From a virus: 20,075 nt of DNA. Where the stretch lies: IMG/VR virus record IMGVR_UViG_3300045978_000332, positions 1 to 20,075 of that record; one strand, 5' to 3'. This document shows positions 4,711 to 20,075 of the stretch, piece after piece (the first letter of the stretch is position 1; every line of letters starts with the position of its first letter). The notes under the pieces were generated by a model, which searched no databases, had not been told where the DNA came from, and worked only from the letters and a program-made list of their open reading frames with translations. A program made the position numbers and the translations under genes.

Positions 4711-4722
4711 CGCTGCGTGCTC

Positions 4723-6405: not shown

Positions 6406-7012
6406 CGGTGCCTCCTTGCCCTGGTCCGACCACGCCACTGGAGACGAGTGTGCGGCCCACCGACGCCACGCCCGAGAGCCCGGTGCCGAGCGCGGCCAGG
6501 CGGGCACCCTGGCGGGCGTCCTGGGCTTTCGCGCGGCCAATGCCGAGCGATGTGACCGCCCCACGCCGCAGTTCCTCCGCCTGAAAGCCTTCGAGCCGGG
6601 CCTCATCGCGGAGCTGCTGCTGGCGCACTGCCGAGCCAAAGCGCAGGGTTTCCTGATCGAGTTCGGCCTCACGGGCTTCGGTGACGGCCGTGAGGAGTGG
6701 TGCGCCGGTGAGTTCCACACCGGCCCCCAGCGTCTGCGCCCGGCGCTCCGCGAACTGGCGCGAGAACTGCTGCTGCCGGGTCTCCAGGTCCAACCCCAGG
6801 GCCTGCTGTTCGGCGAGTACCTCGTTCTCCACACCCGCCTGGCGGCGCTCCCCCAGGCGGGCTTCCTGCTCGGCCTGGTTCGCCTGCTGGCGCGCGTTGA
6901 ACTCGGCGGTCTGCGCCGCCACTTTCCCCTGCCGTGCCTGGGCCGAGACGCTCACTGCAGTGGCCGCCACGGTGGCCGCCACCACCACACCGGCTACGAC
7001 GAGTGGGGGCAT
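6398..7012 (-). CDS. Internal virion protein, T7 gp14-like
   Basis: 204 residues from ATG 7012, which has GGAGG four bases upstream. The longer upstream frame would overlap the preceding gene by more than 70 bases and has no better start. Residues 3-24 are a hydrophobic Val/Ala segment typical of a membrane helix. It is followed by a long Gln/Ala/Glu/Arg helix (about 25-165) and a Gly-rich tail. T7 gp14 (196 aa) has the same size and gene position and forms the outer-membrane channel of the ejection complex. The start overlaps the previous gene by 19 bases and the end overlaps the next by 8, so the three genes are probably translationally coupled. The assignment rests on layout, size and composition; sequence identity to T7 gp14 is not obvious. 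Confidence 0.75.
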   Translation of the reverse strand: MPPLVVAGVVVAATVAATAVSVSAQARQGKVAAQTAEFNARQQANQAEQEARLGERRQAGVENEVLAEQQALGLDLETRQQQFSRQFAERRAQTLGAGVELTGAPLLTAVTEAREAELDQETLRFGSAVRQQQLRDEARLEGFQAEELRRGAVTSLGIGRAKAQDARQGARLAALGTGLSGVASVGRTLVSSGVVGPGQGGTGG

Positions 7013-7497
7013 ACGTCCTCCGGCGTGATACGCGCGTAGAGCCAGGCATCGCCCCACGGAAAATAGCGCGCGCACACGGCTTCAAAGGTAAAGCCGAGGA
7101 GCAGCACGAGGTGCACCGTCTCCTCATCCTCCGCGTTGAGATGCGCTTCCACCCGCCGGTACGCGCGCAAGGCGATCGCCCACGCCAGGAAGCGTCCCAT
7201 CGTCCGGACCAGGGCGATCGGGTACGACCGTGCCTCCCTCGTGAGGAGGATCCAGCAGCGCCCGTTGCCCGACCAGTCCGCTGCCACCCCGCCAATACCC
7301 AGCAGATGCCCACGGCACCGCACGGCGATGTCGTCTCCTAGCTGCGCCTGTGCCATAGCGCTCAGCGCGTCCTCGTGCGCAGGGAACTCCTGGGCCATGA
7401 GCCGTATCTCGCGCTCGCCACACGGGGTGACCTCGACATACCCCGTTGAGGCCCGGCACGCGAACGCCATGACGGCGTGACGAGAAGCGTCACGCAT
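6994..7497 (-). CDS. GNAT-fold internal virion protein, T7 gp13-like
   Basis: 167 residues. ATG 7497 overlaps the stop of the nozzle gene (TAATG) and has GAGGAGG seven bases upstream; the next Met (residue 10) has no ribosome binding site. The pattern looks like an acetyltransferase (GNAT) fold: a strand-turn with HLLGIGGV at 64-71, WILLTRE at 82-88, a helix with RAYRRVEAHL at 111-120, then LLLGFTFEAVCARY at 132-145 and a final strand at 152-157. This matches the phage family that includes T7 gp13 (138 aa), whose members are virion assembly proteins rather than proven acetylases. An acetyl-CoA-binding R/Q-x-x-G-x-G/A loop is not clear here, so catalysis is doubtful. Its place directly after the nozzle gene supports the call. 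Confidence 0.78.
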   Translation of the reverse strand: MRDASRHAVMAFACRASTGYVEVTPCGEREIRLMAQEFPAHEDALSAMAQAQLGDDIAVRCRGHLLGIGGVAADWSGNGRCWILLTREARSYPIALVRTMGRFLAWAIALRAYRRVEAHLNAEDEETVHLVLLLGFTFEAVCARYFPWGDAWLYARITPEDVCPHSS

Positions 7498-10397
7498 TAC
7501 TCGGCCTCCTCATATTCCAGCTCGCCGGAGACCAGCAGAATGGTCGAGGGAAACGGCAACGTCTGCGCGAACGTGACGCGCCCGTCTGTCGTCCACTCGC
7601 CAATGGCGGCTTTCACGTCCACGTCCTCGGGTTCCAGTCCGGTATCCATCAGGTGAGCGACGTCGCGCATGGGCACCATGACGCCACCCACGGTGAGCCC
7701 CACGGAGTCGATGAGCCGCGCATGCATGGCGGCCCAGCGCCGCTTGCGCATCTGCAGCGTGCCATCGTCCGCCGGGATCTCGGGGCGCAGCGTCGTGATG
7801 TGGGCATCAAAGTGCAGGCCCACGTCGAGCATCTCCACGGCGTAGGGCGTCTCCACCTCACCGCCACTCACGACCTGGCTGCCCAGATCGGTCAGGCGGT
7901 GGACCATCACGGTTTCCCCTGCGAGCGTCACGGCGGCTGCGGCTTCCCGCTGCACGAGACGCACCGCGGCGCCTTCCAGATGGTCGAGCCCGCTGAACGT
8001 CGTCGCCGGTGCGCCGGCGTAGGCGAGCGCACAATCCACGGTGAGTGCGGCCAGGCGCTCGGCCTGGGTCGTGACGCCTGGACGTGCCACCTCGATGAAG
8101 CGCCGGGTCGCGCCGGCAATCTCGCGCCGGACCACGCACCAGAGCTGCTCCGTCTCGTCGGTGTCCTGCGCGTCGTCCACCGGGAGGATCGCGACCGACT
8201 CAAAGGCGCCCGCGGTCGTGTGGCGGTGCCAACCGCGCACCTCTTCGAGGAGTTCCATGGTGAGGCCGACAAGCTGCCCATCGCTGCGCACGGCCCACAG
8301 GGTTTTGATGGGCTGGCGCTGATAGGCGAGTTGCGTGACCCCGCCGGAGAGGATGTGCTCGGCGAGGAGCGTCAGATCGCGCACGCGACTAATCCGCGTG
8401 GACTCCTCGTTGAGCGTCAGTTCGTAGAGCCGCCGGAACCCCCGCTCGACGTGCACGATCGTCGTCGCATCGACGCGCACCGGACGCAGCGGCGGCGAGC
8501 CGGTAGTCCCCTGGGGCACCTGGCCCACGTCGTCTGGCTTGAGGATGGGGCCAGCACTGAGCACGAGATGCTCGCCGCCGCGTGTCCCCACAAAGAGGTC
8601 ACTGAAGGGCTCCATCCATTCGATGGTGTTCATGTGATTCGCGGAGAGTTCGATTTCCATGGCATCATCGGCCTGGCTTCCCATCGTGAACTGCTCGAAC
8701 TCGCCGCTGACGGACAGCCACACCGTTAACGGTTGCTGCGTGGTCCCGCCAAAACAGAGACGTCCCTGATGAAACGACACCGCGCGTGGATAGCCCCGCT
8801 CCGCCGACCACGCTTTGACACCCAGCGTCCAGGCACCGGCGTTGACGAGCGTGTCAGCATCGAGCGGATCCCAGACAATGCCGACGATGGTCGAGGCGTC
8901 GAGGACTCCGGTAACCTCGACAGTGCCACCCGCGATGGTCAGGAGCTTCTCCACGTCCTGGCTTCGAAACGCCTGGGCAGAGACATTTTTGACCGTCGCA
9001 TTGTCCACCACGGCCTGCTGGTCCTGATTGTTGCGGAAGTGCACGTAGGTCGTTGCTCCTGTCGCGACAAAGGTCACCTCATGCTCGTTGCCCACCTGAT
9101 ACGTGGCTTCCCCGGCCAGTTCAGAGCCCGTCGCGGTGGTGCCGACGAGGACCGCCACCGGATTTTCCCGGACATCGAACGCCAGACGGTAGGAGCGCCC
9201 GGCCACCGTGGTGAGCGTCTGACGCCGCCAGCCGACGCCGTTTTCGCCGCCGTCTAAGCGCAGCTCCCCTGCGGTGATACTGGCCGTCCCGGTCTGGCGA
9301 ATGGTGTACGCCTTGCCTGCCGGCCAGGAGGCTCCCGCGGTTGCCGTGGTGAGCTTCGTCTGCGAGACCACGGCTTCGACGCGGTCCTGCGTGCCGTCGG
9401 TCGTGTTGTAGGCGATGTGCGCGACTTCCACACCAGCGGTCATGAAGGTGGCCCCGGTATCAACCAGGGTCGTATTGACCGGGTCGGGCGCCGGGTCGGT
9501 TGTCGTGCCGCTGGCGACGGTCGGCCCCGAGAGATCGTCCCAGCCGGTCGCCTCATCGAAGCCACCACTCACGAGCATCTCGGGTGCTGAGTCGAGCGTG
9601 CGCTGGGCACTGAGGGTCACGAGCGCCCCTTGCGGACCAGCTTTATCGGGCTCGAGATCCACCACGGGTGAGCCTTCGAGCACCCACTGCCCCGCGGTGA
9701 TGGGAGCGGTCGAAGGAAAATCCACCAGAATCGTGCAGATGACGGTTGCCGAGGGCGACGTGCCCCCGAGCGCGGTGATGACGGCGCGTGCATCGCCTGA
9801 GCGGATCTGGCGATCGACGTCGCCATCGAGAAACACGGCACTGCCCGCGGTGAACGTGACACCAGTGCCCGTGGTCGCGCCCGGGGTGAGGGTCGTGCCC
9901 AGGTCCGTGTCCGCGTCTGCCGCTGGCATGGGGCGAAAGGGAATGACTTTATATTCCCAGCTCGTATGCGACAGCCTCAGCAGTTTCGCCGGCGGGTAGT
10001 CCGGGTGCACGATGTAGAGCACATCGGCCGACTGCGTCATCTGCAGTGCGAAGAGGTCCGCCTCATTATACGGTGTGGCGACCTCGACGGGTGTCCCCGG
10101 CGGGCTCTCTAAGCGTCCGAGATCGGCATAGAAGCGGATATAGAGATGCCCGATCTCCAGGATATACGCCTGCTCTACGCTAAACTCGAAGCGCTCCAGC
10201 CGACAGCGCCGTGTGTCGTACTTCGCCCGCGCCACGAACAGCGTCCCCGCTCTTTTCTCAACACCCCCCTGGGACAGCGTGCGGTAGTTCTGGCACACGG
10301 CCAGGCCAGCGAAATAGCGATTGATGTCCACGCGACCGCCGAGGCGCGGGGACAGTTCACCAGCCGTGAAGGAGTATTGCACACTTCTAAGAGGCAT
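7497..10397 (-). CDS. Tail nozzle (tail tubular protein B, T7 gp12-like) with extra carbohydrate-binding-like domains
   Basis: 966 residues, longer than T7 gp12 (794 aa). The N-terminus has the family signature YSFTAGELSPRLGGRVDINR (residues 8-27), then a conserved Cys-Asn-Tyr and QGGVEKRAGTLFV at 43-55. Residues about 162-245 look like a common beta domain of phage nozzles. Residues about 273-475 look like a jelly-roll carbohydrate-binding module: SGGFDEATGW at 277-286, AGRSYRLAFDVREN at 399-412, AVVDNATVKNVS at 462-473. A second small domain (about 303-367) sits inside it. The ATG at 10397 overlaps the gp11-like stop (TAATG), with GGAG eight bases upstream. The protein should form the tip of the tail tube and hold the fibres. 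The extra module may bind host surface glycans; that is inference. Confidence 0.88.
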   Translation of the reverse strand: MPLRSVQYSFTAGELSPRLGGRVDINRYFAGLAVCQNYRTLSQGGVEKRAGTLFVARAKYDTRRCRLERFEFSVEQAYILEIGHLYIRFYADLGRLESPPGTPVEVATPYNEADLFALQMTQSADVLYIVHPDYPPAKLLRLSHTSWEYKVIPFRPMPAADADTDLGTTLTPGATTGTGVTFTAGSAVFLDGDVDRQIRSGDARAVITALGGTSPSATVICTILVDFPSTAPITAGQWVLEGSPVVDLEPDKAGPQGALVTLSAQRTLDSAPEMLVSGGFDEATGWDDLSGPTVASGTTTDPAPDPVNTTLVDTGATFMTAGVEVAHIAYNTTDGTQDRVEAVVSQTKLTTATAGASWPAGKAYTIRQTGTASITAGELRLDGGENGVGWRRQTLTTVAGRSYRLAFDVRENPVAVLVGTTATGSELAGEATYQVGNEHEVTFVATGATTYVHFRNNQDQQAVVDNATVKNVSAQAFRSQDVEKLLTIAGGTVEVTGVLDASTIVGIVWDPLDADTLVNAGAWTLGVKAWSAERGYPRAVSFHQGRLCFGGTTQQPLTVWLSVSGEFEQFTMGSQADDAMEIELSANHMNTIEWMEPFSDLFVGTRGGEHLVLSAGPILKPDDVGQVPQGTTGSPPLRPVRVDATTIVHVERGFRRLYELTLNEESTRISRVRDLTLLAEHILSGGVTQLAYQRQPIKTLWAVRSDGQLVGLTMELLEEVRGWHRHTTAGAFESVAILPVDDAQDTDETEQLWCVVRREIAGATRRFIEVARPGVTTQAERLAALTVDCALAYAGAPATTFSGLDHLEGAAVRLVQREAAAAVTLAGETVMVHRLTDLGSQVVSGGEVETPYAVEMLDVGLHFDAHITTLRPEIPADDGTLQMRKRRWAAMHARLIDSVGLTVGGVMVPMRDVAHLMDTGLEPEDVDVKAAIGEWTTDGRVTFAQTLPFPSTILLVSGELEYEEAE

Positions 10398-11032
10398 TAG
10401 AGCGGCTCCGCAATATCGCCCATGGGCGGAAATGGGTCTTCGCCACGGATGGCGATATACGTCTCGTTCAGCGCGCGTGGCGGACTATCCTGATGGCCGT
10501 CAATGTCGATCACGCGCCCGAGCTGGGTCTGGAGCTCGGCGAAGAGTTGCGTGCGCAGGGTGGTCTTGCCGGTGAGGCGCTGACTGATGGCGAGCGCCAG
10601 CCACATGGCCAGGGTATCGCTAAACAGCGGCGGAAAGAGCGCCTCTGAGACGCGCGCGATATAGCGCAGCACGACCGAGGGGGCACTCGTGAGAATGACC
10701 GGGGTCTGCGTGTCGGGCGTGTTTGGGGCAATGTAGACCTCGCGCGCGTAGGCAAAATGCTGCGTGTGAATGGATAACGCGCGCAGGGGAAAGGGGGCCG
10801 TGGGCCAGGAGTACATATAGCTATACTCGTCATCCGGCGGCGCGTCGGCGATGCGCGTGAGTGTCTGGCGCGTCGTGGCGAACGTCCACGGCGCCCACGA
10901 CAAGATCTTATCGCGCACCAGCGGGTAGTAGAGCTGACACACCGGGCTATCGGAGGGCGCGGTAATGGATTTGTCGCCGACATAGTTGAGCGCCAGGTTA
11001 AACAGGGTCAGCGCGGCGAGCGATTCCGCCAT
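10397..11032 (-). CDS. Tail tubular protein A / gatekeeper, T7 gp11-like
   Basis: 211 residues (T7 gp11 is 196). The N-terminus NLALNYVGDKSI at 12-23 and CQLYYPLVRDKILS at 32-45, followed by PWTFATTRQTL, are characteristic of the podovirus gatekeeper family, which sits between portal and nozzle and closes the DNA channel. The RIADAPPDDEYSYMYSWP region (60-77) also fits the family. ATG 11032 has GGAGG nine bases upstream. The gene overlaps the preceding small gene by 35 bases and its stop overlaps the nozzle start. Confidence 0.88.
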   Translation of the reverse strand: MAESLAALTLFNLALNYVGDKSITAPSDSPVCQLYYPLVRDKILSWAPWTFATTRQTLTRIADAPPDDEYSYMYSWPTAPFPLRALSIHTQHFAYAREVYIAPNTPDTQTPVILTSAPSVVLRYIARVSEALFPPLFSDTLAMWLALAISQRLTGKTTLRTQLFAELQTQLGRVIDIDGHQDSPPRALNETYIAIRGEDPFPPMGDIAEPL

Positions 11033-11219
11033 CGCCTTTGTCCTCCAGGTCGAGCGTCAACACCTGTAGGAGATCGGCGAGCGCTTCCTCGGCAATCTCC
11101 AACCCCACCGCCAGGTCACTATGCGGGTCAGCGCGCACACGGTCCTGTTGCACACGCGTCAGGCATGCGGCCAGCACGTCCCGCGACTGGAGCCAGTAGA
11201 TGCGCTGTCCAGCGTCCAC
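10998..11219 (-). CDS. Small acidic protein of unknown function
   Basis: About 73 residues from the second of two tandem GTG codons; AGGAGG lies seven bases before it, while the first GTG (11222) and a TTG (11225) are closer than ideal. The protein is Leu- and Asp-rich and helical (for example GLEIAEEALADLLQVLTLDL). It overlaps the gatekeeper start by 35 bases and contains that gene's ribosome binding site. I do not recognise a family. The good ribosome binding site and tight packing argue that it is real; the position just before the gp11-like gene could suit a head-completion or assembly factor, but nothing in the sequence proves it. Confidence 0.55.
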   Translation of the reverse strand: MDAGQRIYWLQSRDVLAACLTRVQQDRVRADPHSDLAVGLEIAEEALADLLQVLTLDLEDKGDGGIARRADPV

Positions 11220-11242
11220 CACCAATCCTCCTGTCTGGGGGC

Positions 11243-11263
11243 TCCGCCGTTCAGGGCGGCGGA
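11243..11263 (-). other. RNA hairpin between two late genes
   Basis: A perfect 7-bp stem (TCCGCCG / CGGCGGA) with a 7-base loop occupies much of the 48-bp gap between the coiled-coil gene and the small acidic gene. No T-run follows on the minus strand, so it is not a standard intrinsic terminator. It may stabilise the mRNA or mark a processing site. Confidence 0.45.
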
Positions 11264-11267
11264 CTGA

Positions 11268-11759
11268 CTACGTTTCTCCTTGCAGGCCTTCAACGGCTTT
11301 TCTGATGTCGGCCAAGCGCTTTTCGAGCCTGGAGAGTTCACGGCCGCGCGTCTTCACCTGCGCCTCCAGCGCGTCACGCTCCGTGCGGAGCGCCTCCACG
11401 TCGGCCTCAAGGCGCATCCGCTCATCGCCCAGCTGCGCGACCTGCGCGAGCACTTCACCGGCCTGCTCCTGTTTCCACGCTGCGAGATCCAGGGCGATCC
11501 GCTCCCGCCCTTTGTCCAGTTCGACGTCGACCTGCTCCTGCACGCGCGTGAGCTGCTTCGTCACGTCGCCCAGGTGCTCTTCGGCGGTGAGCCACTGCTC
11601 GCGCGTGTGCACGAGCGCCGCCTGCACGCGCTCAAGCTCGGTCTGCGCCTGCGCCGCTTCCGCAAACACCCACTCCGCATCGGAGAGCCGCTCGACGAAC
11701 TGGCGTATTTCCTGCGCTGTGACGCGCGCGTGTTCGTAGTTGATGGGCTCATCTGCCAT
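11268..11759 (-). CDS. Coiled-coil protein, probable virion or assembly component
   Basis: 163 residues, almost wholly predicted coiled coil from about residue 30 to 160: repeated Leu/Val/Ala at heptad spacing among Glu, Arg, Gln and Lys (for example RMRLEADVEALRTERDALEA near 113-132). There is no Cys, no membrane segment and no signal peptide. ATG 11759 has only a weak AGGA about 10 bases upstream. Its place between capsid and tail genes suggests a structural or chaperone-like role in head completion, or a second scaffold-like factor. No family is recognised; function is inferred from position only. Confidence 0.6.
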   Translation of the reverse strand: MADEPINYEHARVTAQEIRQFVERLSDAEWVFAEAAQAQTELERVQAALVHTREQWLTAEEHLGDVTKQLTRVQEQVDVELDKGRERIALDLAAWKQEQAGEVLAQVAQLGDERMRLEADVEALRTERDALEAQVKTRGRELSRLEKRLADIRKAVEGLQGET

Positions 11760-11785
11760 ACGACCAACGTCCTACATGGTTCGGG

Positions 11786-12145
11786 TTAGACCCCGCCGCC
11801 CCGGCTCGCTTTGATGCGCACACGCGCGGAGCCAGTGCCCGCCACGACGCGCGGTCGGACCATATACGGGGCATTGATCGACACATGACCGCCGGGCGCC
11901 GTGAGCACAATCTCGGTGTAGAGCGCGTTGCGCAGGCGGTACCACACCACGAGCGCGTCACCTTCGCGCGAGAGCGAGCCCTCCATGCCGATCGTCGGCG
12001 TGCCTGAGAGCATCTCCATCACCTGGATCTCCACCGCCGCACACGGCCCAATGACCAGGAGTGGCGGGTCGGTATCGGTCTCGTCGATCACCCACTCCTG
12101 GAGGAGAAGGCCATAATCGGTCTCGATGCGATGAGTGGTAGCCAT
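11786..12145 (-). CDS. Small probably beta-rich protein of unknown function in the head gene block
   Basis: 119 residues from ATG 12145. The open frame extends upstream, but that part is a shadow of the preceding gene. No strong ribosome binding site is seen; the previous stop is 10 bases upstream, so coupling is likely. The sequence looks like a compact beta protein: alternating hydrophobic strands such as PPLLVIGPCAAVEIQVME and DALVVWYRLRN, then EIVLTAPGGHVSI, ending in a basic Gly-rich tail. Together with the previous decoration-like gene it could be a capsid accessory or head-tail joining protein. I do not recognise a family. Confidence 0.6.
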   Translation of the reverse strand: MATTHRIETDYGLLLQEWVIDETDTDPPLLVIGPCAAVEIQVMEMLSGTPTIGMEGSLSREGDALVVWYRLRNALYTEIVLTAPGGHVSINAPYMVRPRVVAGTGSARVRIKASRGGGV

Positions 12146-12155
12146 GCGTGCGGTC

Positions 12156-12389
12156 TCAAGGAGTCGGCGGGCGCAAGCGCCCCAGCATCTCGGTGCACGA
12201 CAGCAAGCGCTCGACCAGTTCCCGGGTCGTGTCTTGCTGATGACGCAGCTCGCTAATGAGCCAGTGCACGATCGCCGCACCGATGAGCAGCAAGGCGAGC
12301 GACACGATCGGCCCACCCTGCTGCAGCAATGGGAGCACCAGGCCCAGGACTCGGCTCGCACGTCCGCCGTTCGCCCCGTTCGTCGCCAC
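12156..12389 (-). CDS. Small membrane protein of unknown function (holin-like in size)
   Basis: 77 residues from GTG 12389, two bases after the stop of the preceding gene (TGA-GC-GTG), with no strong ribosome binding site, so translation is probably coupled. Residues about 15-23 and 28-46 are hydrophobic (PIVSLALLLIGAAIVHWLI), giving one long or two short membrane segments. They are followed by a charged amphipathic helix (ELRHQQDTTRELVERLL) and a basic Pro end. Size and layout resemble small class II/III holins or other phage membrane proteins, but no endolysin gene is next to it. It is equally plausible as an unknown accessory protein. The start codon is the less certain part. Confidence 0.5.
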   Translation of the reverse strand: MATNGANGGRASRVLGLVLPLLQQGGPIVSLALLLIGAAIVHWLISELRHQQDTTRELVERLLSCTEMLGRLRPPTP

Positions 12390-12391
12390 GC

Positions 12392-12880
12392 TCAGGCGCT
12401 CGGCGAGCCGAGCGTGTAGGCAATAACGCCTTTGACCGTCGCGCCAGCAGGAATGGTGCCGCCCGTACACTGAAAGGTCAGAACCGCCGGACCCTCGAAG
12501 ACGCGGCTCTCCAGGGCACCGGTGGCATCGTTCAAGACTTTGGTCCCCGCCGCCGCCACGTCGAGCGCGGTCCCTAAGCCCGTGAGTGAGGCGGCTTGCG
12601 TGGTGCCATCGGGTTTGAGGTACGCCTCCCACCCGAACGAGAGCACGCGCGACGTGCCAAAGGCACTATGCCGGATGCGCGACAGGTGCGAAATGTAGCG
12701 CGCCCCGGCCGGCAGCTTGCACACACGAATCGTCGAATTGGCATCACCCGCTGCGACACCCTGCGTGAATTCAAACACTTCGAGAATCGTCCCGGCACCA
12801 CTTTTGGAGCGCCGATTAAACTTCGGAGGCGTCGCCTCAATATTGATGAGGAGATCGCTTTCTTCCTGAGTCTCAGCCAT
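12392..12880 (-). CDS. Probable capsid decoration or head-stabilising protein
   Basis: 162 residues directly downstream of the capsid gene (20-bp gap), with AGGAG eight bases before ATG 12880. After a polar N-terminus (about 1-30) the protein looks all-beta: ILEVFEFTQG, then VCKLPAGARYISHLSRIRHS at 53-72, then a strand with RVLSFGWEAYLKPDG, and a C-terminal strand pair with FQCTGG and VIAYTLG. Phage genes with a PAGA-then-strand pattern just after the major capsid gene are commonly decoration or capsid-associated proteins, and that is the basis of the call. No database match could be made here. Confidence 0.6.
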   Translation of the reverse strand: MAETQEESDLLINIEATPPKFNRRSKSGAGTILEVFEFTQGVAAGDANSTIRVCKLPAGARYISHLSRIRHSAFGTSRVLSFGWEAYLKPDGTTQAASLTGLGTALDVAAAGTKVLNDATGALESRVFEGPAVLTFQCTGGTIPAGATVKGVIAYTLGSPSA

Positions 12881-12900
12881 AGGACTTTCTCCTATAGTAC

Positions 12901-13794
12901 TTATGCAGGCGATGCTGTGGTATCGACCCCAATCTCCACGACCATCTTATCGTCGACGCGAACATAGTTGAATTTATCCTCGCGAAACACCTGCATGGCG
13001 TAGGACAAATCCGCCCGCTCACCGGCGCGCATCTTCACCTCGGCGTTCTTGCCACAGCCCATGCCCATCTTCGCATAGGCCACGGTATACCGTGTGGTCG
13101 CAATGGTCGGCATCTGCGTGGTGGGAATCCAGTTGAAGCCCATGAGGCCCTGCACCGGCTTGCCTTCCATGAGGGCCTGGCGCGACACATAGTCGAGTGA
13201 AGTGAACTGTGTCTCGGTGAGCAGGAAGCGGATATCTTCAGGGTGATAGAGGAGAAAGTAGGGGCCCATCACCTCGACGTCGCCGCCGGTCGCGGTATCG
13301 AGGATGGCGCGCGCCTGGATGATTTTATTGCGTGTCAGCCCCGTCGTCCCCGCCGCGATCTTCTGCGCTGCCGGCAGCGCCACCACGGTGGACGCGGCGC
13401 CGAAGGTGTCTTCGGTGGTTTCCGTCGCGTCGCCTCTGGCAGCCGTAATGAGCCGACTGGTGTGCGTCCGGTTGAGCGCGGCGGCGGCGGTGGTCACGTA
13501 CTCGCTTTCGGCCTGCCACATGTGCTCCCACTCGTCGATCTGATCTTCCATGAGGTTGATCCGCCACGGCGTGGGAAAGGCCCAGCGCATCGTCGCCGCC
13601 GGGGTATTGTTGGGCGTCGGCGCAAACCGTGAGGTCGGCGTCTCGCCCTCAGCGACCGCCAGGACCGGGAACCCGATCATGCGCGCGCGCTGCGTTTTCA
13701 TCATCGTCGTGCCGTCCACTTTGGCGCGCGATTCCTGCGCCTTGTGGTGCACGTTGTCGAAATACGCCCTTACTTGCCAGCCTTCAACGGGCAT
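12901..13794 (-). CDS. Major capsid protein
   Basis: 297 residues. The N-terminus (EGWQVRAYFDNVHHKAQES) and a conserved-looking core match my recollection of a podovirus capsid family, distant from T7 gp10 but probably with an HK97-like fold. Core elements are RINLMEDQIDEWEHMWQAES at 78-97, NKIIQARAILD near 154-164 and GPYFLLYHPEDIRFLL near 173-188. The C-terminal half ends in DKFNYVRVDDKMVVEIGVD, a typical last strand of the P domain. It follows the scaffold gene (with one insertion between), as expected. ATG 13794 has AGGTAGGA four to eight bases upstream. The long structured leader in front may raise expression, since capsid protein is needed in the largest amount. Confidence 0.85.
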   Translation of the reverse strand: MPVEGWQVRAYFDNVHHKAQESRAKVDGTTMMKTQRARMIGFPVLAVAEGETPTSRFAPTPNNTPAATMRWAFPTPWRINLMEDQIDEWEHMWQAESEYVTTAAAALNRTHTSRLITAARGDATETTEDTFGAASTVVALPAAQKIAAGTTGLTRNKIIQARAILDTATGGDVEVMGPYFLLYHPEDIRFLLTETQFTSLDYVSRQALMEGKPVQGLMGFNWIPTTQMPTIATTRYTVAYAKMGMGCGKNAEVKMRAGERADLSYAMQVFREDKFNYVRVDDKMVVEIGVDTTASPA

Positions 13795-13834
13795 TATGTC
13801 CTACCTCAGTGCTCAGGGCTTGATGCCATGAGCG

Positions 13835-13927
13835 AGAGAGTGCCGGCACCTGCCGATCTCTCTAGCCTTCACGTGGCTCTTCGGGGTGGGTGTTGGGCCG
13901 GATCGTCCACCCGACGAGTCCCCGGCC
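13835..13927 (-). promoter_or_regulatory. Structured leader before the capsid gene (two hairpins)
   Basis: The 187-bp gap 13795-13981 is unusually long for this window and holds no convincing gene. It contains a two-part hairpin: GGCCGG/CCGGCC (13896-13901 with 13922-13927) enclosing TCGTC/GACGA (13903-13907 with 13913-13917). Nearer the capsid start is a second one, AGAGAG/CTCTCT (13835-13840 with 13858-13863), enclosing the palindrome TGCCGGCA. Neither is followed by a T-run, so a leader or processing role is more likely than termination. A TTGACA box lies upstream (13953-13958, minus), but no good -10 follows it. Confidence 0.4.
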
Positions 13928-13973
13928 AGGTCTGTCCCTCCTGCTCTTGCCTTGTCAAGAACCTCCGAGAAAC

Positions 13974-13989
13974 CTCCCCGTTCAGGGAG
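13974..13989 (-). terminator. Weak terminator-like hairpin at end of the Cys-rich gene
   Basis: CTCCC / GGGAG forms a 5-bp GC stem with a 6-base loop, followed on the minus strand by GTTTCTC. The stop codon of the Cys-rich gene lies in the loop. The stem is short and the T-run weak, so at best this is partial termination. Confidence 0.25.
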
Positions 13990-14398
13990 AGGAGGATGTC
14001 ACGTCATGCCACACGCCATCGTGCCATCGTGCGACCAGCTTCCCGGACGCACTATGCACGCCCGCCGCCCTCATGGCCTGGCGTATCCACTGTTGCACGG
14101 ACGTATAGCACTCCCACCTGGAGCTCTCCTCATACGGGTGCGGAGAGCACAATAGCAGTTGGAGGGCCTCTGGGCCTGGGACAGCCCAGACCTCAGGCCT
14201 GCCCAGACAGCCCAGCTGTATATCTCCCACCTCCTGAGCGCCGTCAGGGAACGTGTACCACGTTTTCACGCACCCAAACAGCCCGGCGCCACAATGCGGG
14301 CAGCGTCCTAGCGTGGGTGGCACGCCGAACGTCCAATCAGACCAATCTTCCCGATATACCAGCCGAGTACAGTCATGTGGTTTATACAGTCTGTGCAT
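13982..14398 (-). CDS. Cys-rich, possible zinc-ribbon protein; insertion between scaffold and capsid genes
   Basis: 138 residues from ATG 14398. Seven Cys are present (10, 33, 36, 43, 64, 84, 97), and RCPHCGAGLFGC at 32-43 looks like half of a zinc ribbon. The protein is also rich in Trp and Tyr. It does not resemble a virion protein, and its codon use has more A/T in third positions than its neighbours. It sits where the scaffold and capsid genes normally adjoin. No ribosome binding site precedes the ATG (CACTCCTT), 18 bases after the scaffold stop. Together this suggests a late-acquired accessory (moron-like) gene; it could instead be a small regulator. I do not recognise the family. The complementary strand is also open here but its translation looks random. 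Confidence 0.55.
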   Translation of the reverse strand: MHRLYKPHDCTRLVYREDWSDWTFGVPPTLGRCPHCGAGLFGCVKTWYTFPDGAQEVGDIQLGCLGRPEVWAVPGPEALQLLLCSPHPYEESSRWECYTSVQQWIRQAMRAAGVHSASGKLVARWHDGVWHDVTSSSP

Positions 14399-14416
14399 AA
14401 GGAGTGCCTAGACGTC

Positions 14417-15352
14417 TTACCTTTCTTCTTCTCTGAGATCGATGCCCGTAAAGGCCCCGACCTGGAGTCCATCGCGCTGGCTGCCGTACGCCAGCGGCCC
14501 GTAGCGTTGCTGCACGGCCTGAAAATCTGCCGGCGTCATGCGGCCCTCACGCAGTTCGCCGCGCGCGCGGTTAATGCGCTCTTGCGCGTCCTGCGCGCTC
14601 GTAGCGCCGTGTGCGCCACCCGGTACGAAGCGATCGTGCCCTTTCAAGCGTGCCAGCTCATACGCCATCTGCACGAACTGCGGCACGTTACCGAGGAGCT
14701 GGGGGCGTCCGTCCGCGTCTTTCGCTACCATGGTCTCGACCCAGCCCGTATCGCCGAACTCCCGGCGCAGGCCTTCCATGGCGACCGCGATGTTATGGTC
14801 TGCCATGGCGCCCCAGTGCTGCTTGAGCTGCTCGTAGCCGGCCTGGCGCTGGGCGCCTTCCCCTTCCTGGAACGCCTGCCACTGCTGCGCGCTGTACTGC
14901 GCGTACCACTGCACGATGGGCGCAAGCTGCGCGTCGGTCATGCCCGCCTTGTGGGCTTCGGCGAGGAAGCCCTGAAAGGCCTCAGGCGCCATCTGCGGCA
15001 TGCCGTCTGGCATGGTGGGCGCCGTGGTCGTGTACTTGTCCGGCGTCTGCGGCACGCCGAGCGCCGTCCGGAAGGCCTGTACTGCCTCGGGTGTGGCGTC
15101 CTGGCCCGGGACCTGCAGGCCCTGGGGGCGCTCGCCGAATTTGCGCTCCAGCTCCAGATGCCCGCGCGCGAAGTCATCGGCGCTCTTGTAGCGCGCGAAT
15201 GTCGGGGACGTGCGCAGCGCCGCGTCCTCGAACATCGTCTCGGTCCACGGGGTCGCGCCGGCAGCGCCCGTGCCCGTGTCAGCACCTGCGCCCGCGCCAG
15301 CACCACCATCGGCACCGGCCTCGGCCATCAGCAGCGGAAAGCGCCGTGTCAC
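14417..15352 (-). CDS. Scaffold (capsid assembly) protein
   Basis: 311 residues, near T7 gp9 (307 aa), between the portal and capsid genes. The start is GTG 15352, overlapping the previous stop (GTGA) with GAGGAGGAGG seven bases upstream. The frame is open 34 codons further but without another good start. A low-complexity Gly/Ala/Asp stretch (about 10-33) is followed by acidic helices. Residues near 60-115 (DFARGHLELERKFG, then VPQTPDKYTTTAP) match the pattern of podovirus scaffold proteins. The C-terminus is charged (GIDLREEER), although T7-type scaffolds usually end in a basic helix. The protein should guide prohead assembly and then leave. Confidence 0.82.
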   Translation of the reverse strand: MTRRFPLLMAEAGADGGAGAGAGADTGTGAAGATPWTETMFEDAALRTSPTFARYKSADDFARGHLELERKFGERPQGLQVPGQDATPEAVQAFRTALGVPQTPDKYTTTAPTMPDGMPQMAPEAFQGFLAEAHKAGMTDAQLAPIVQWYAQYSAQQWQAFQEGEGAQRQAGYEQLKQHWGAMADHNIAVAMEGLRREFGDTGWVETMVAKDADGRPQLLGNVPQFVQMAYELARLKGHDRFVPGGAHGATSAQDAQERINRARGELREGRMTPADFQAVQQRYGPLAYGSQRDGLQVGAFTGIDLREEER

Positions 15353-15603
15353 TGGGTATCCTCCTCCTCGCGTGTCTGCCTCGGCACACGCGCTTCGTCG
15401 ATCGCGTCGAGCAGCTCGCGCACCAGATCCTGACGCCCGACCCACCGCAGGCACTGCTCGGGCTCAAGAGGCGGATGCGCCAGGAGATAGGTGTGCACCA
15501 GGTACCCGATCACCTGCCTGCCCCAGGGCATCACCAGCATCGAGCACAGCGCGGCGTGGAACTCCGCCTCACTGCACGCCTCAAAGTCGTTAAGCCTGGG
15601 CAC
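15349..15603 (-). CDS. Small Bbp19-like phage protein
   Basis: 84 residues from GTG 15603, with GGGAG seven bases upstream; it overlaps the portal end by 14 bases and the scaffold start by 4. The pattern of a helix, then MPWGRQVIGYLVH at 25-37, then a GRQDLVRELLDAI helix at 56-68, resembles the small family typified by Bbp19 of Bordetella phage BPP-1, often found next to portal genes. The molecular role of that family is not established. Extension to an earlier in-frame codon would only add a shadow of the portal gene. Confidence 0.65.
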   Translation of the reverse strand: MPRLNDFEACSEAEFHAALCSMLVMPWGRQVIGYLVHTYLLAHPPLEPEQCLRWVGRQDLVRELLDAIDEARVPRQTREEEDTQ

Positions 15604-17278
15604 CCGTAAACTCCCGGATGGCGTCGAGCGCGGGCGCCGCGTCCCCGGCCGCTTTCGCGACCTGGCTGCCGGTATCAAGCTGTGCCTGCTGCTCTGCCTG
15701 CACCTGCGCCTGGGCGCGCACCGCCTCCATAAAGCGCCGATCGGTAATCAGCGGCTCGGGGAAGCCCCGCGCGCGCAAGAAGCGGGCGACCGTGTCATCG
15801 AGCGCGACGTTCTGGAGAATCGCCCGGTCCCCCGTGCGCTCGGCCAGCTGCAGCACGAACTCCACGCCCTCGGTAATGGCCTCGACGTCGTCTTCCTTTT
15901 GCGCTCGGGCCAGCGGTCCCAGGTATTCCACGTTGATGTGCCCCTGGTTGGCCAGCGCCGCTTCGATGATGACGTCGGGCGGCTGCGGGAAGGCGCCAGC
16001 ATGCAGCATAAGCGAGAACGAGACGTCGATAAACGGGTTCAGGAACTCGGCCAGCAACCGGAAGAACGCCGGTCCCATGATGCGGGCCATCTGCCGGCGG
16101 CGGAGCATGAGTTCGCCGAGGGTGCGGTGCGTGCGCTGCGTGGTCTCCGGCAAAAACTGGAGCTGGTCGATGTAAAAGGCCCGCAGGATACGCGAGCGCC
16201 GCTCCTCGATCTGGAGCTGGGCCAGGTCCATGCGCGAGCCCGACGCGTACGGCACGAACGAGCCGCCCTTCGCCAGGGGGTTGAGCGTGCCCGGCAGCAG
16301 CGACACCCGGCCGATGGTCTCGCGACTCTCCCCGACCAGCCATCCCGGGGGCAGGATGGTCATGGGGAGGGCCCGGAGCGCGTCCTTGTCAATGAGCTGC
16401 AGCGTCTTCGACTCCGGCAGCACGATATGCCCGCGGCCAAAGCCCCAGGGCGTGTGCTGGCTGATTTTCTCCCACCGGAAGACCAGGTACGGGAACCACC
16501 GGTACCCCGACTCGTGTACCAGGTGCTTGTGCGTGACATCCACCCAGCACGAGGCCCACGGCATATTTTTCGCATCACGCTGCCCTCTGTCGCGGTCGCG
16601 TCGCGGGTAGACGGCGTGGAGGTACTTGCCGGGCTCGAAGCGCCGAGCGGCGCCGTCGTCCGAGAGCGCGTCCTGGACGTTCGTATGCAGGGCCTCTTTG
16701 CCCCAGATTTCCGCGGCCTGGTGCGGCGACAGCTCGCGGTCCTCGTAGAGGGTATCGACGCGGCCCGTCGCACTCTCTGCCGTGTAGTAGGTGCCGATAA
16801 GCAGCGAGTGCGCCTCATAGCCGCGAAAGCCTGGTGTGAGGCGCTCGGCCATCTGCTGCTCATCGAGGTAGAGGGCGCCCGTGCCGAATCCGGCGTACTG
16901 GCGGTACGCCTCGTGCACCGCCGTCGTGACCGGCGCTTCGTCCGAGACCATCTCCTCGTACAGAATCTGGGAGACGTCATCGAGCCAGCGCGCCGCCTCC
17001 TGATTGTCGCGTAAGGACCGCATGCGCAGGCCGAACCACAGCATCTGCCAGTTGGTGATCCAGGCCCCCAGGTGTGCCACGAAGGTATCGAGCGCCCACA
17101 TGGCGGTGGAATCGTAGAGCTGGCGCGTGCGTGTCGTCCCCGGCTGGCGCCAGGAGAGGATATCACTCTGCCCTGGCAGCATGAGGTCAGCAATATCCTG
17201 CCAGTCCTGGAGCCAGGCGTGGGTCTGGCTCGCCAGGGCGTCACGTTCGCGCATGATGCGTGCTACGTCTGCCGGCAT
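15590..17278 (-). CDS. Portal protein (head-tail connector, T7 gp8 type)
   Basis: 562 residues (T7 gp8 is 536). Family features: LYDSTAMWALDTFVAHLG at 54-71 followed by a NWQMLWFGLRM segment (the usual D-S-T-A then W-F pattern), HEAYRQYAGFGTGALYLDE at about 121-139, FPYLVFRWEK and GFGRGHIVLPESKTLQLID in the stem/crown region, then a C-terminal helix rich in Ala and Gln. The protein forms the dodecameric ring through which DNA is packaged and ejected. ATG 17278 has AGGA six bases upstream. The preceding small gene ends 3 bases before it. Confidence 0.93.
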   Translation of the reverse strand: MPADVARIMRERDALASQTHAWLQDWQDIADLMLPGQSDILSWRQPGTTRTRQLYDSTAMWALDTFVAHLGAWITNWQMLWFGLRMRSLRDNQEAARWLDDVSQILYEEMVSDEAPVTTAVHEAYRQYAGFGTGALYLDEQQMAERLTPGFRGYEAHSLLIGTYYTAESATGRVDTLYEDRELSPHQAAEIWGKEALHTNVQDALSDDGAARRFEPGKYLHAVYPRRDRDRGQRDAKNMPWASCWVDVTHKHLVHESGYRWFPYLVFRWEKISQHTPWGFGRGHIVLPESKTLQLIDKDALRALPMTILPPGWLVGESRETIGRVSLLPGTLNPLAKGGSFVPYASGSRMDLAQLQIEERRSRILRAFYIDQLQFLPETTQRTHRTLGELMLRRRQMARIMGPAFFRLLAEFLNPFIDVSFSLMLHAGAFPQPPDVIIEAALANQGHINVEYLGPLARAQKEDDVEAITEGVEFVLQLAERTGDRAILQNVALDDTVARFLRARGFPEPLITDRRFMEAVRAQAQVQAEQQAQLDTGSQVAKAAGDAAPALDAIREFTGAQA

Positions 17279-17281
17279 GGG

Positions 17282-17486
17282 TCATCCTACCAGTGTGCGC
17301 TTCTTCGGCTGTGTCGAACTATAGTCACCCAGTTGGGTTGTCGTCATCGAGCGGACGGCACTCCTCAGTCCTGCGGGCTTCAGGCTGTCTACCCGGAGCG
17401 TCCCCTCTGTGGCGGCCTGCGCAATCCGGGCTGTGCGGGCCTGTGACTCGGACTGTGCGGGCCTGTGACTCGGACTGTGCGGGCAT
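17282..17486 (-). pseudogene. Small gene broken by a 22-bp tandem duplication
   Basis: An ATG at 17486 lies just after the stop of the previous gene, with GGAGA six bases upstream, and reads MPAQSESQAR before the frame breaks. A 22-bp unit is present twice plus a 10-bp remnant (17431-17484). Removing one 22-bp unit restores a single 60-residue frame that ends in KKRTLVG just 3 bases before the portal ATG. As written, the ATG frame instead ends after about 56 codons at a TGA near 17317. The restored tail (DYSSTQPKKRTLVG) resembles the KTLLG ending of the neighbouring 79-residue protein. It may be a real mutation, a phase-variable site or an assembly error. Confidence 0.6.
17431..17484. repeat. 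22-bp tandem repeat, about 2.45 copies
   Basis: The unit (on the plus strand CTGTGACTCGGACTGTGCGG followed by GC) occurs at 17441-17462 and 17463-17484 with no mismatch, preceded by its last 10 bases at 17431-17440. As 22 is not a multiple of 3, each gain or loss of a unit shifts the reading frame of the gene at 17282-17486. Confidence 0.97.
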
Positions 17487-17489
17487 GGC

Positions 17490-17729
17490 CTATTCTCCAA
17501 GCAAGGTCTTGCGCGTCGAGACCACCGGCCCCGTATCGCCGGCCCCACCGCCGGGCGTCAGCAGCGTCTGGCGCCGGCCGCGCCTCCGGGCGAGCGCGCG
17601 TGTCTCTTCCTCGGCCCCCTGCACGGCCTCGGAGGTCCTCGCCGGTGGAGGCAGCGGCGTCGGCGTCGGCGGCGGGGTGCGGGGCGCCGGGGGCTCGGGG
17701 AATTTTGGCGTGTCGCCAAAGAAGGACAT
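17490..17729 (-). CDS. Small proline-rich protein between terminase and portal (T7 gp7.3-type tail assembly candidate)
   Basis: 79 residues from ATG 17729, two bases after the terminase stop, with GGAGG eight bases upstream; the frame-open GTG at 17738 is too close to that site. After MSFFGDTPKFPEPP the protein is a Pro-rich linker (9-29), then an Arg-rich helix (about 40-53) leading to GRRQTLLTPGGGAG (51-64) and ending STRKTLLGE. Small phage proteins with this R-rich GR-x-x-TLLT-x-G motif and KTLLG end are common just before portal genes, and T7 gp7.3 holds a comparable place. The virion or tail-assembly role is inferred. Confidence 0.65.
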   Translation of the reverse strand: MSFFGDTPKFPEPPAPRTPPPTPTPLPPPARTSEAVQGAEEETRALARRRGRRQTLLTPGGGAGDTGPVVSTRKTLLGE

Positions 17730-17731
17730 AG

Positions 17732-19144
17732 CTACCACCTCCCCATGGGGTTAAAGTCGGCGCCGGGCTGCTGGCGCGCGCGGCGTGAGCGCCCACCGAA
17801 GGGCGGCTCCTCGTGCTCCTGGACCGCCAGGCCCACCGCGAGGTAGCGAAACGCCGACGCCGGATGTGACGCCCAGTCGTGCAGCGGCCGGTCGTGAAAC
17901 ACCTTTTTCTCCTCGTCCCACTCGCGCCGGTACGATCTGAGGCCGTTCAACCCCTGGCGGGTGTGCTCGGCATCGAAGACGCAGCGCGAAAGGAGGGTAC
18001 GCGCGGCGTTGATGCCGTCCACCAGGGGCCACTTCGGCACCGCCGTGAAGCAGTAGCCGAACTCGGTGAGCTGCTCGGCCCGCGTTTTCCCGGTGCCCCA
18101 GTCCGCTTCGCCCAGATCCTGCTCCATGGCAAAATGCTTCCCGTAGAGGTAGCCCTTCTGGTCGAGCATCTGCGCGTAGTAGTCCGCCCCTTTGTTACTT
18201 GCCTGGTGATAGTCCATGACCAGCACCCGGTTGCCGTGCATCTGGCAGAACCACACGCTATTGGTGTCGTGGGCCTTCGACGTGCCCAGATCCCACGCGG
18301 TGTGCACACGCCTGGACGGGTCGTAGGCCACGGTCGTGATCCGTCCGTCACGCTCGGCTTTCAGCAGCTCGTCGGCCCAGTAGGCGCCCGGCATCGGCGC
18401 TTTCCAGGAGAGGTAGTATTCCTGCTCGATCAGCGCATCCACGCCCTGCACACCGCGCGCCAGGAGTTCCTGGCGGTGCGCGTCAATGGCCGCGTCCGTA
18501 ATGACGGGCGTGCCATCTTCGCCTGGAGCGTCGCGCCTGGTGTGATCCACGGTCAGATACTCCACGTGCCAGTCGGGCTGGGCAATCGCATACTGGTAGA
18601 GGTCATAGCCGTGGTTCTCGCCACGCGGCGTATAGGCAAGGATTTCCCAGCCGTCGTTTTCCGCGAGAATCGGCCTGGCGTAGTCACGTGCCAGCGGATT
18701 TTGTAAGCTGAACTCATCCCAGATGACTCCCACCGTGTTCCCGCCGACCACGGCGTTGACATTGCGATCGGTTCCGAGGAGTTGATACGTGCTGCCGGGC
18801 CAGGCCGGCTGCATCGTGTCACGCAGCGTGATCTTCAGCTCGTTTTTGTTGGGCGGCCGCTGCCGGAGCGCTGCCGGAAAATGTTCGATGTAGCGCAAAC
18901 CACTCCGGCCGATCCCGTCCCACACAATTTCCCGCGCTTGCTTGAGGAAGGGGAAGATATGTAAGTAGTTCCCTTTCCGCTGCAGCATGGGCTGTGGTAC
19001 GAAGGAGATCAGGCTCTCGGTTTTGCCACTGCGCCGATGCATGACCAGCAGGATATGCCGGCACCCGCGCTGCCACGCCGCATAGATGCGCCGATGGTAC
19101 GACCGGGGCGTGTACCTATACGGGATCTGGATTCTCGTCGCCAT
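17732..19144 (-). CDS. Terminase large subunit
   Basis: 470 residues. The ATPase domain shows Walker A as HRRSGKT (36-42), Walker B as VGVIWDEFS (138-146) with Glu144 as catalytic acid, and a coupling motif AYTPRGENHG (170-179). The RNase-H-like nuclease domain shows Asp285 in HTAWDLGTS, an acidic residue in the MEQDLGEADWG region (340-350), and Asp423 in HDWASHPASAF (422-432). The usual SH-x-A-D-A reads SHPASA here. The enzyme should drive DNA translocation through the portal and cut concatemers. ATG 19144 has GGAG ten bases upstream and overlaps the small subunit gene by 29 bases. Confidence 0.95.
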   Translation of the reverse strand: MATRIQIPYRYTPRSYHRRIYAAWQRGCRHILLVMHRRSGKTESLISFVPQPMLQRKGNYLHIFPFLKQAREIVWDGIGRSGLRYIEHFPAALRQRPPNKNELKITLRDTMQPAWPGSTYQLLGTDRNVNAVVGGNTVGVIWDEFSLQNPLARDYARPILAENDGWEILAYTPRGENHGYDLYQYAIAQPDWHVEYLTVDHTRRDAPGEDGTPVITDAAIDAHRQELLARGVQGVDALIEQEYYLSWKAPMPGAYWADELLKAERDGRITTVAYDPSRRVHTAWDLGTSKAHDTNSVWFCQMHGNRVLVMDYHQASNKGADYYAQMLDQKGYLYGKHFAMEQDLGEADWGTGKTRAEQLTEFGYCFTAVPKWPLVDGINAARTLLSRCVFDAEHTRQGLNGLRSYRREWDEEKKVFHDRPLHDWASHPASAFRYLAVGLAVQEHEEPPFGGRSRRARQQPGADFNPMGRW

Positions 19145-19535
19145 ACTGCGTCTGCTCCACTACGAGCGGTCCCGTGAAGGTGTGCGTCGTGTCCGTGCGC
19201 TCGCGATAGACGTCGGGACGCCGCGCCCGCAAGCGAAACATGAGGAGCGCGTCCGAGTACTCGCGCACGTGGCCAACGCGCTGGCCGCGCCAGTAGACGG
19301 GCTTCCTGACACCTTTCGTGGCGCGTCGATCGGCTTCACACTCCAGGAAGTCGTCGTACTCGGCCTGCGCCTCATCCCACGCCTGGGCAAACGCCGCAAG
19401 CTGCGCGCGCCATTCGTAGACGGCCGTCCTTGACGTCTTGATCGCCCGCGCTGCCAGGGTCACATTGCCGGTCTTGCGGAGGATCTCCACAAATTTCGCG
19501 CGCGTTTTGGCTGTCAACTTTGTCAACTTTGCCAC
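19116..19535 (-). CDS. Terminase small subunit
   Basis: 139 residues from GTG 19535, chosen because GAGG lies eight bases upstream and the product begins AKLTKLT. An in-frame TTG at 19568 would add 11 residues but has no spaced ribosome binding site and lies in a hairpin; no in-frame ATG exists. An N-terminal helix-turn-helix (about 24-43, NVTLAARAIKTSRTAVYEWR) should bind the packaging site. EADRRATKGVRKPV at 67-80 and REYSDALLMFRLRARRPDVY at 91-110 are the usual C-terminal signature of phage small terminases and Terminase_5/HTH-type packaging proteins. It overlaps the large subunit start, as normal for a coupled pair. Confidence 0.9.
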   Translation of the reverse strand: MAKLTKLTAKTRAKFVEILRKTGNVTLAARAIKTSRTAVYEWRAQLAAFAQAWDEAQAEYDDFLECEADRRATKGVRKPVYWRGQRVGHVREYSDALLMFRLRARRPDVYRERTDTTHTFTGPLVVEQTQYGDENPDPV

Positions 19536-19567: not shown

Positions 19568-19596
19568 AGCCTGGTAGCGGCGATGACTACCAGGCT
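19568..19596 (-). promoter_or_regulatory. Perfect 10-bp hairpin just upstream of the small terminase gene
   Basis: AGCCTGGTAG (19568-19577) pairs perfectly with CTACCAGGCT (19587-19596), loop 9 bases. No T-run follows. Its outer arm abuts the palindrome GGCTCCGGAGCC (19593-19604), which could also pair with either arm of the upstream terminator, so it may be part of a switchable leader. Confidence 0.55.
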
Positions 19597-19616
19597 CCGG
19601 AGCCGGCTATGGCCAC

Positions 19617-19667
19617 AAAAAAACCGGAGCTGTGAAGGCAGTTCCCCCCGCCCCACGGCTCCGGTTT
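19617..19667 (-). terminator. Strong intrinsic terminator in the late leader
   Basis: On the minus strand AAACCGGAGC (19658-19667) pairs with GCTCCGGTTT (19621-19630). The T-run of seven (19617-19623) overlaps the outer stem arm. Inside, GTG/CAC and further G-rich pairs can extend the stem after one mismatch. It lies directly downstream of the promoter at 19687-19714 and about 80-130 bases before the terminase start, so unmodified RNA polymerase should mostly stop here. The plus-strand reading has only TTT after the stem and is weaker. Confidence 0.7.
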
Positions 19668-19686
19668 CGTGTGGTATATGCCGGGA

Positions 19687-19714
19687 AGTGTACGCAGAAA
19701 TCGCGACGTGTCAA
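19687..19714 (-). promoter_or_regulatory. Sigma70-type promoter, candidate late promoter
   Basis: On the minus strand a perfect TTGACA (19709-19714) is followed after 16 bases by TACACT (19687-19692), four of six matches to TATAAT. Transcription should begin near 19679-19680 and read into the terminator leader and then the terminase-to-fibre gene block. This is the only good promoter-like pair I found in a long gap in the window. A TATACC (19673-19678) falls at about +2 to +7. Confidence 0.65.
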
Positions 19715-19764: not shown

Positions 19765-20073
19765 TTAGGGGCGCGAGGGAGTTCTCGCGCGCGTCATTTC
19801 ACAAGCCATTTCCTCATCAAGAGGGAGTCCGCTACAGGGTACGTGGGGTGACAATGCAGGAGTGCGCGCCGGTTGTTTCTCCAGCGGCACCATATCGAGA
19901 AGATGCCCATGTGCAATAATCGTTCTGCCCTTCGTCGGCTGAACGGTGTCGTCTTGTACAGCGAACCAGGGGCGTTCTAATGCAGTAATGCGAGCTGTGA
20001 CAGCAAAATAGTCTCGTTGTTTTGCTGTGCGCGTATGTGCTCTGATTGTCTCTCCCAGAGAACGATCACAGGT
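19765..20073 (-). CDS. C-terminal part of an unrecognised gene (5' end outside window)
   Basis: One frame is open from the right edge for 102 codons to a TAA at 19765. The translation looks protein-like in its first two thirds, with ETIRAHTRTAKQRDYFAVTA and ITALERPWFAVQDDTVQPTK near residues 8-48, then LLDMVPLEK; the end is Pro/Arg-rich. Base composition is less GC-rich than the rest of the window, with many A/T third positions. The gene ends about 50 bases before the late promoter, which in lambda-like phages is where the Q antiterminator gene lies, but I see no motif that shows this. A second minus-strand frame is also open for 32 codons at the edge, so the frame is not certain. Confidence 0.45.
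   Translation of the reverse strand, partial: TCDRSLGETIRAHTRTAKQRDYFAVTARITALERPWFAVQDDTVQPTKGRTIIAHGHLLDMVPLEKQPARTPALSPHVPCSGLPLDEEMACEMTRARTPSRP
19771..19790. repeat. 7-bp inverted repeat near the end of the right-edge gene
   Basis: GCGCGAG (19771-19777) and CTCGCGC (19784-19790) are perfect complements around a 6-base spacer, just before the stop of the right-edge gene. There is no T-run on either side, so termination is unlikely. Confidence 0.5.
20000..20028. repeat. 9-bp inverted repeat, possible operator or hairpin
   Basis: ACAGCAAAA (20000-20008) and TTTTGCTGT (20020-20028) are perfect complements with an 11-base spacer. It lies inside the predicted right-edge coding frame. An A/T-rich dyad of this form could be a protein-binding site, or a coincidence in a less GC-rich stretch. 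Confidence 0.45.
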
Positions 20074-20075
20074 AA

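Follow-up and report, generated by a model that had tools for sequence, protein, structure and literature searches.

A sigma70-type promoter and an adjacent intrinsic terminator precede a phage late block and form a candidate antiterminated leader

How are packaging and virion genes switched on when the promoter before them runs almost at once into a strong terminator? This question is raised by a 20,075-base linear IMG/VR virus record (the window), a fragment that holds the late block alone, with the early half of the genome absent and all large genes on the minus strand. Another record, contig L001/L018 (the twin), differs from it at 1 position in 13,766 bp, carries an identical leader and extends 247 bp further upstream. 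The original prediction was that the whole block is turned on by antitermination, either by a protein or by refolding of the RNA. The features of the locus are listed in Table 1.

Table 1 Features of the leader and of the genes on either side, in window coordinates
Feature	Position	Strand	Description
Upstream gene, 3' end; orphan	19765..20075	-	102 codons in the window, at least 185 in the twin contig L001 (L001 1-558)
Sigma70-type promoter	19687..19714	-	-35 TTGACA 19714-19709, 16-nt spacer, -10 TACACT 19692-19687
TATACC, -10-like hexamer	19673..19678	-	+2 to +7 given start 19679; A2 present, T6 absent
Intrinsic terminator	19617..19667	-	Imperfect stem-loop 19667-19621, -31.3 kcal/mol; T run 19623-19617 (seven Ts)
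Perfect palindrome GGCTCCGGAGCC	19593..19604	.	3' of the U-tract; partly complementary to the terminator 5' arm
Second hairpin AGCCTGGTAG/CTACCAGGCT	19568..19596	-	10 bp, arms 19596-19587/19577-19568, in the 5' UTR
Terminase small subunit (terS)	19116..19535	-	PHROG 4044; GTG 19535 likely start, Shine-Dalgarno GAGGU
Co-directional late block	469..19144	-	TerL, portal (PF12236), scaffold, capsid (PF19821), tail and internal virion proteins

The TTGACA-N16-TACACT element claimed for the gap before terS was found, with a predicted transcription start at about 19679. It matches the sigma70 consensus, which may not be that of the host, at 10 of 12 positions, and was the sole site at ≥10/12 in the window when both strands were scanned. 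Dinucleotide shuffling of the 230-bp gap produced a promoter of ≥10/12 in 0.15% of sequences, or in 0.05% under strict -10 rules. From 19617 to 19535, between the terminator and the likely GTG start of terS, the consensus scan found no promoter-like site, and inside the late block the window scans detected neither a second promoter of ≥10/12 nor a terminator of comparable strength. Judged from its Shine-Dalgarno sequence, this GTG is probably the start of terS rather than the TTG at 19568, which is located at the second hairpin. A weaker promoter-like site (9/12) lies before the portal gene at 17347-17318, just downstream of a 22-bp unit in 2.6 tandem copies (17427-17484, 97% match); chance alone would give about 1.8 sites of 9/12 per 10 kb. 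At the terS start, a 9-bp tandem repeat of AAGTTGACA (19512-19531) creates two extra TTGACA hexamers that have no -10 partner.

The 10-bp GC-rich hairpin with seven Ts that had been proposed early in the transcript is real and stronger than supposed, with arms (AAACCGGAGC/GCTCCGGTTT) that extend beyond one mismatch into a second stem. A 76-nt piece including the outer CCACA/UGUGG folded at -40.2 kcal/mol (z -5.9), a value that none of 200 shuffles equaled. The terminator came from a fold-based scan, in which it was the strongest in the window; a simple scan had not listed it. With position 19679 as the start, the hairpin extends from about +13 to +59 and the T run spans +57 to +63, roughly 80 bases ahead of the likely terminase start, and in prefix folding the terminator was present from about 56 nt onward and never displaced. 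In related viral loci (1.43 Mb of strand sequence), a terminator of ≤-12 kcal/mol lay no more than 110 nt downstream of 3 of the 218 promoter-like sites (≥10/12), and none was below -15. The promoter and terminator statistics and the rarity of such close pairing make chance a poor explanation for the leader. Search of the RNA families (Rfam) gave no match apart from one chance hit. The terminator stem pattern AACCGGAGC...GCTCCGGTTTTT occurred in four viral contigs besides the twin, with loops and surroundings unlike those here, and on this evidence it is a generic stem.

These sequence statistics show a promoter-like site, a terminator, their order, and no equal promoter in the stretch from there to the genes or within the block, and thus confirm the predicted lambda pR'-tR' order of promoter, terminator and late block. 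With no promoter-like site between the terminator and the gene, the late block needs either read-through or a promoter of a type invisible to the scans. We see about an even chance that the gap is a compact leader of the late operon, working in the manner of lambda pR'-tR' or the AlpA promoters and read through by a predicted phage factor. Host RNA polymerase would start near 19679 and, unaided, would stop at the T run, and the product would be an RNA hairpin about 60 nt long. The gene for a phage antitermination protein would lie outside the fragment or be the upstream orphan; this protein would load at or just past the promoter, and polymerase carrying the factor would read through into a packaging and virion operon of at least 19 kb. 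Use of the promoter, function of the terminator in the host and its relief by a protein are all what we infer from this anatomy. Since the transcript has only about 12 nt ahead of the hairpin, promoter-loaded factors are the natural class, and there is no space for a leader peptide, an aptamer, a nut-like site or an antiterminator arm. A leader-peptide or riboswitch attenuator was rejected because of this short distance and because the proposed arm lies behind the U-tract. An RNA of the HK022 put type was also rejected: put needs two promoter-proximal stem-loops working on the polymerase ahead of any terminator, and here the first stem-loop itself ends in the U7 tract and the second lies behind it.

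Of the two routes to antitermination that had been proposed, action of a protein is the best reading of the anatomy, whereas refolding of the RNA is excluded on geometry. The palindrome and the second 10-bp hairpin are present where claimed, and the latter is not a terminator because it has no U-tract. The 9-bp complementarity through which the 5' arm of the terminator was to be captured also exists and is perfect, but it joins 19664-19656 with 19605-19597, one base away from where it had been placed. This partner arm is 3' of the U-tract and is made only after polymerase has left that tract, so it is absent when termination is decided and refolding cannot stop it. The alternative fold is, moreover, 12.5 kcal/mol worse (-63.5 vs -76.0 kcal/mol). 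Undoing of the terminator by this pairing is scarcely credible.

The leader has in common with lambda pR'-tR' (Q of PF03589; 21Q, PF06530; 82Q, PF06323) a sigma70 promoter, an intrinsic terminator and one long late operon. The terminator here is much nearer the promoter (about +13 to +63) than lambda tR', which lies near +190, and the leader directly precedes terS, whereas that of lambda precedes the lysis genes. The Q proteins of lambda and 21 require a binding element between -35 and -10, plus a -10-like pause element (PMC6606751; PMC7171158). Inspected by eye, the promoter spacer (CGTCGCGATTTCTGCG) has neither the TGAGCA direct repeat of 21Q nor the GGGACG of AlpA, elements that vary among Q families, and unlike in lambda no Q-binding element or Q gene was identified in the fragment. 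TATACC had been put forward as the pause element. Its position relative to a start at 19679 holds, but as a pause element it is incomplete: T6, which is important for sigma-dependent pausing, is missing, and a hexamer of ≥4/6 is expected in 4.3% of random sequences for the stretch that holds it. It was nevertheless the best hexamer in the initial transcribed region, where the scan found none with both A2 and T6, the positions needed in the AlpA system (PMC9371919). AlpA promoters of Pseudomonas aeruginosa (alpB, PA0807) likewise have a promoter-near intrinsic terminator; theirs begin at +26 and +54, and a protein loaded at the promoter lets polymerase bypass them (PMC7969949, PMC9371919). They differ in the spacer, and the operon here is a phage late operon for which no AlpA relative was seen. 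The terminator begins at about 13 nt, closer to the start than in any of the Q and AlpA leaders that we cite.

The gene upstream of the leader had been suggested as a place to search for a Q-like antiterminator. None was found among its visible 185 C-terminal residues, which matched none of the Q families (PF03589, PF06530, PF06323). The protein had no match in Pfam, NCBIfam, PHROGs, phages, viral contigs or genome contigs, and its structure prediction was unusable (mean pLDDT 40). The gene has about 50% G+C, and the late block roughly 58-68%. Because T6 is missing and the upstream gene has no Q-family match, we propose that the leader works like, and not that it is, the lambda or AlpA type. 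It is a long shot that the upstream orphan or another phage gene is an antiterminator of a new family, loading without a canonical pause element ahead of a terminator that begins at about 13 nt. The lack of a visible antiterminator in these 185 residues also fits a leader that works with no factor, as a leaky attenuator and insulator: the terminator would block read-through from the upstream gene and would hold late expression at a low, constant proportion of promoter firing. The terminator indeed lies about 100 bp past the stop codon of this co-directional gene, a position expected of a terminator at the end of an operon. However, so stable a hairpin (-31 kcal/mol), followed by seven Ts, should terminate very efficiently, and leakage would ill suit genes whose products are needed most at late times, so that we consider this account unlikely, though not negligible.

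The lack of a consensus promoter below the terminator would be met differently if a late promoter at 19617-19535 were of a kind that consensus scans do not see, used by a phage polymerase or another sigma factor, with the terminator merely ending the upstream operon and the promoter match being due to chance or minor. The sigma70 consensus may not apply in the host, a polymerase gene may lie in the absent half of the genome, and the virion genes are T7-like. Yet the probability of a promoter of such quality in the gap by chance is ≤0.15%. Phage-polymerase promoters usually recur within the block, but 20-mers below the terminator do not recur there above the shuffled level. A hidden promoter is, in our judgement, rather unlikely. 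The promoter and terminator could also constitute a gene for a small RNA about 60 nt long, with regulation of the late block secondary, which is compatible with read-through by a phage factor. Distance and anatomy fit such a gene, like that of StxS, a phage-encoded RNA of Shiga phages that is 74 nt long (PMC12197685). The RNA would, however, be nearly all stem, with a possible seed of just about 12 nt and a G-rich loop, and it has no Rfam match; we give a small-RNA gene a slim chance.

Q-type control had been regarded as unusual beside a T7-like virion gene set with no visible RNA polymerase gene. The missing gene means little, because the fragment contains the late block alone, and a Q or a terS-proximal terminator is already known together with the same or a related portal. 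Pseudomonas phage Shamal has a Q protein of PF06530 (E 6e-16) and a portal of PF12236 (E 7e-146), and Pseudomonas phage vB_PaeP_YA3 has the same portal family, Q, and a terminator at +224 from the late promoter (PMC7326022). Both share the PF12236 portal family with the window, but their late promoter stands before the lysis genes and their terminator is farther away. In Salmonella phage epsilon15, which has a portal related by tblastn to that of the window, an intrinsic terminator is annotated immediately before terS, and a similar hairpin precedes terS in TL-2011b, ZX5 and EC.W1-9 (Uetakevirus). The terS-terL-portal order, the related portal and the terminator before terS are common to these phages and the window, whereas the sequence differs and their candidate promoter just upstream scores no more than 8-9/12. 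The Uetakevirus loci (L099/L100, which are epsilon15, L102, L104 and L105) have GTGACATGTCACGA and a GCCGCC/GGCGGC terminator before terS in common. In the terS gap of BPP-1, scanned as for the window, neither promoter nor terminator was found. Promoter-loaded antitermination also acts on a phage-like structural cluster, the Caulobacter GTA cluster under GafYZ (PMC11150451); unlike here, its terminator follows the first gene, and its control needs IHF and GafY.

If read-through by a phage factor is the right reading, a phage without close relatives beyond an identical contig would join those in which termination close to the promoter gates the virion genes, and loading of the factor would have to be complete within about 60 nt. 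The leader would then lend itself to a simple reporter with which to look for the factor; it would overturn nothing.

Searches of viral contigs with TerS, TerL, portal, capsid and the upstream protein returned one identical contig and otherwise distant relatives, and genome contigs yielded nothing related to TerS or the upstream protein. In TerL, the nearest relatives besides the twin were about 40% alike, and at such a distance they can neither confirm nor refute the leader. Comparison of the gap across related phages, which had been suggested as a check, gave a divided result: the leader is identical in the twin, but a promoter followed by a terminator upstream of TerL was no commoner in 88 distant relatives (6 hits, twin excluded) than on the control strand (5 hits). 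The TerL profile search used four sequences, as a nine-sequence profile was too diverse. As far as these sequences go, the arrangement is no clade-wide feature, and conservation gives its function no support. One TerL relative, L087, carries at 3841-3945 (minus) TTGACA-N17-TATGAT (11/12), followed by a hairpin that has a T-rich tail and precedes a leftward gene; this leader resembles the present one in its promoter and terminator but is located on the divergent strand.
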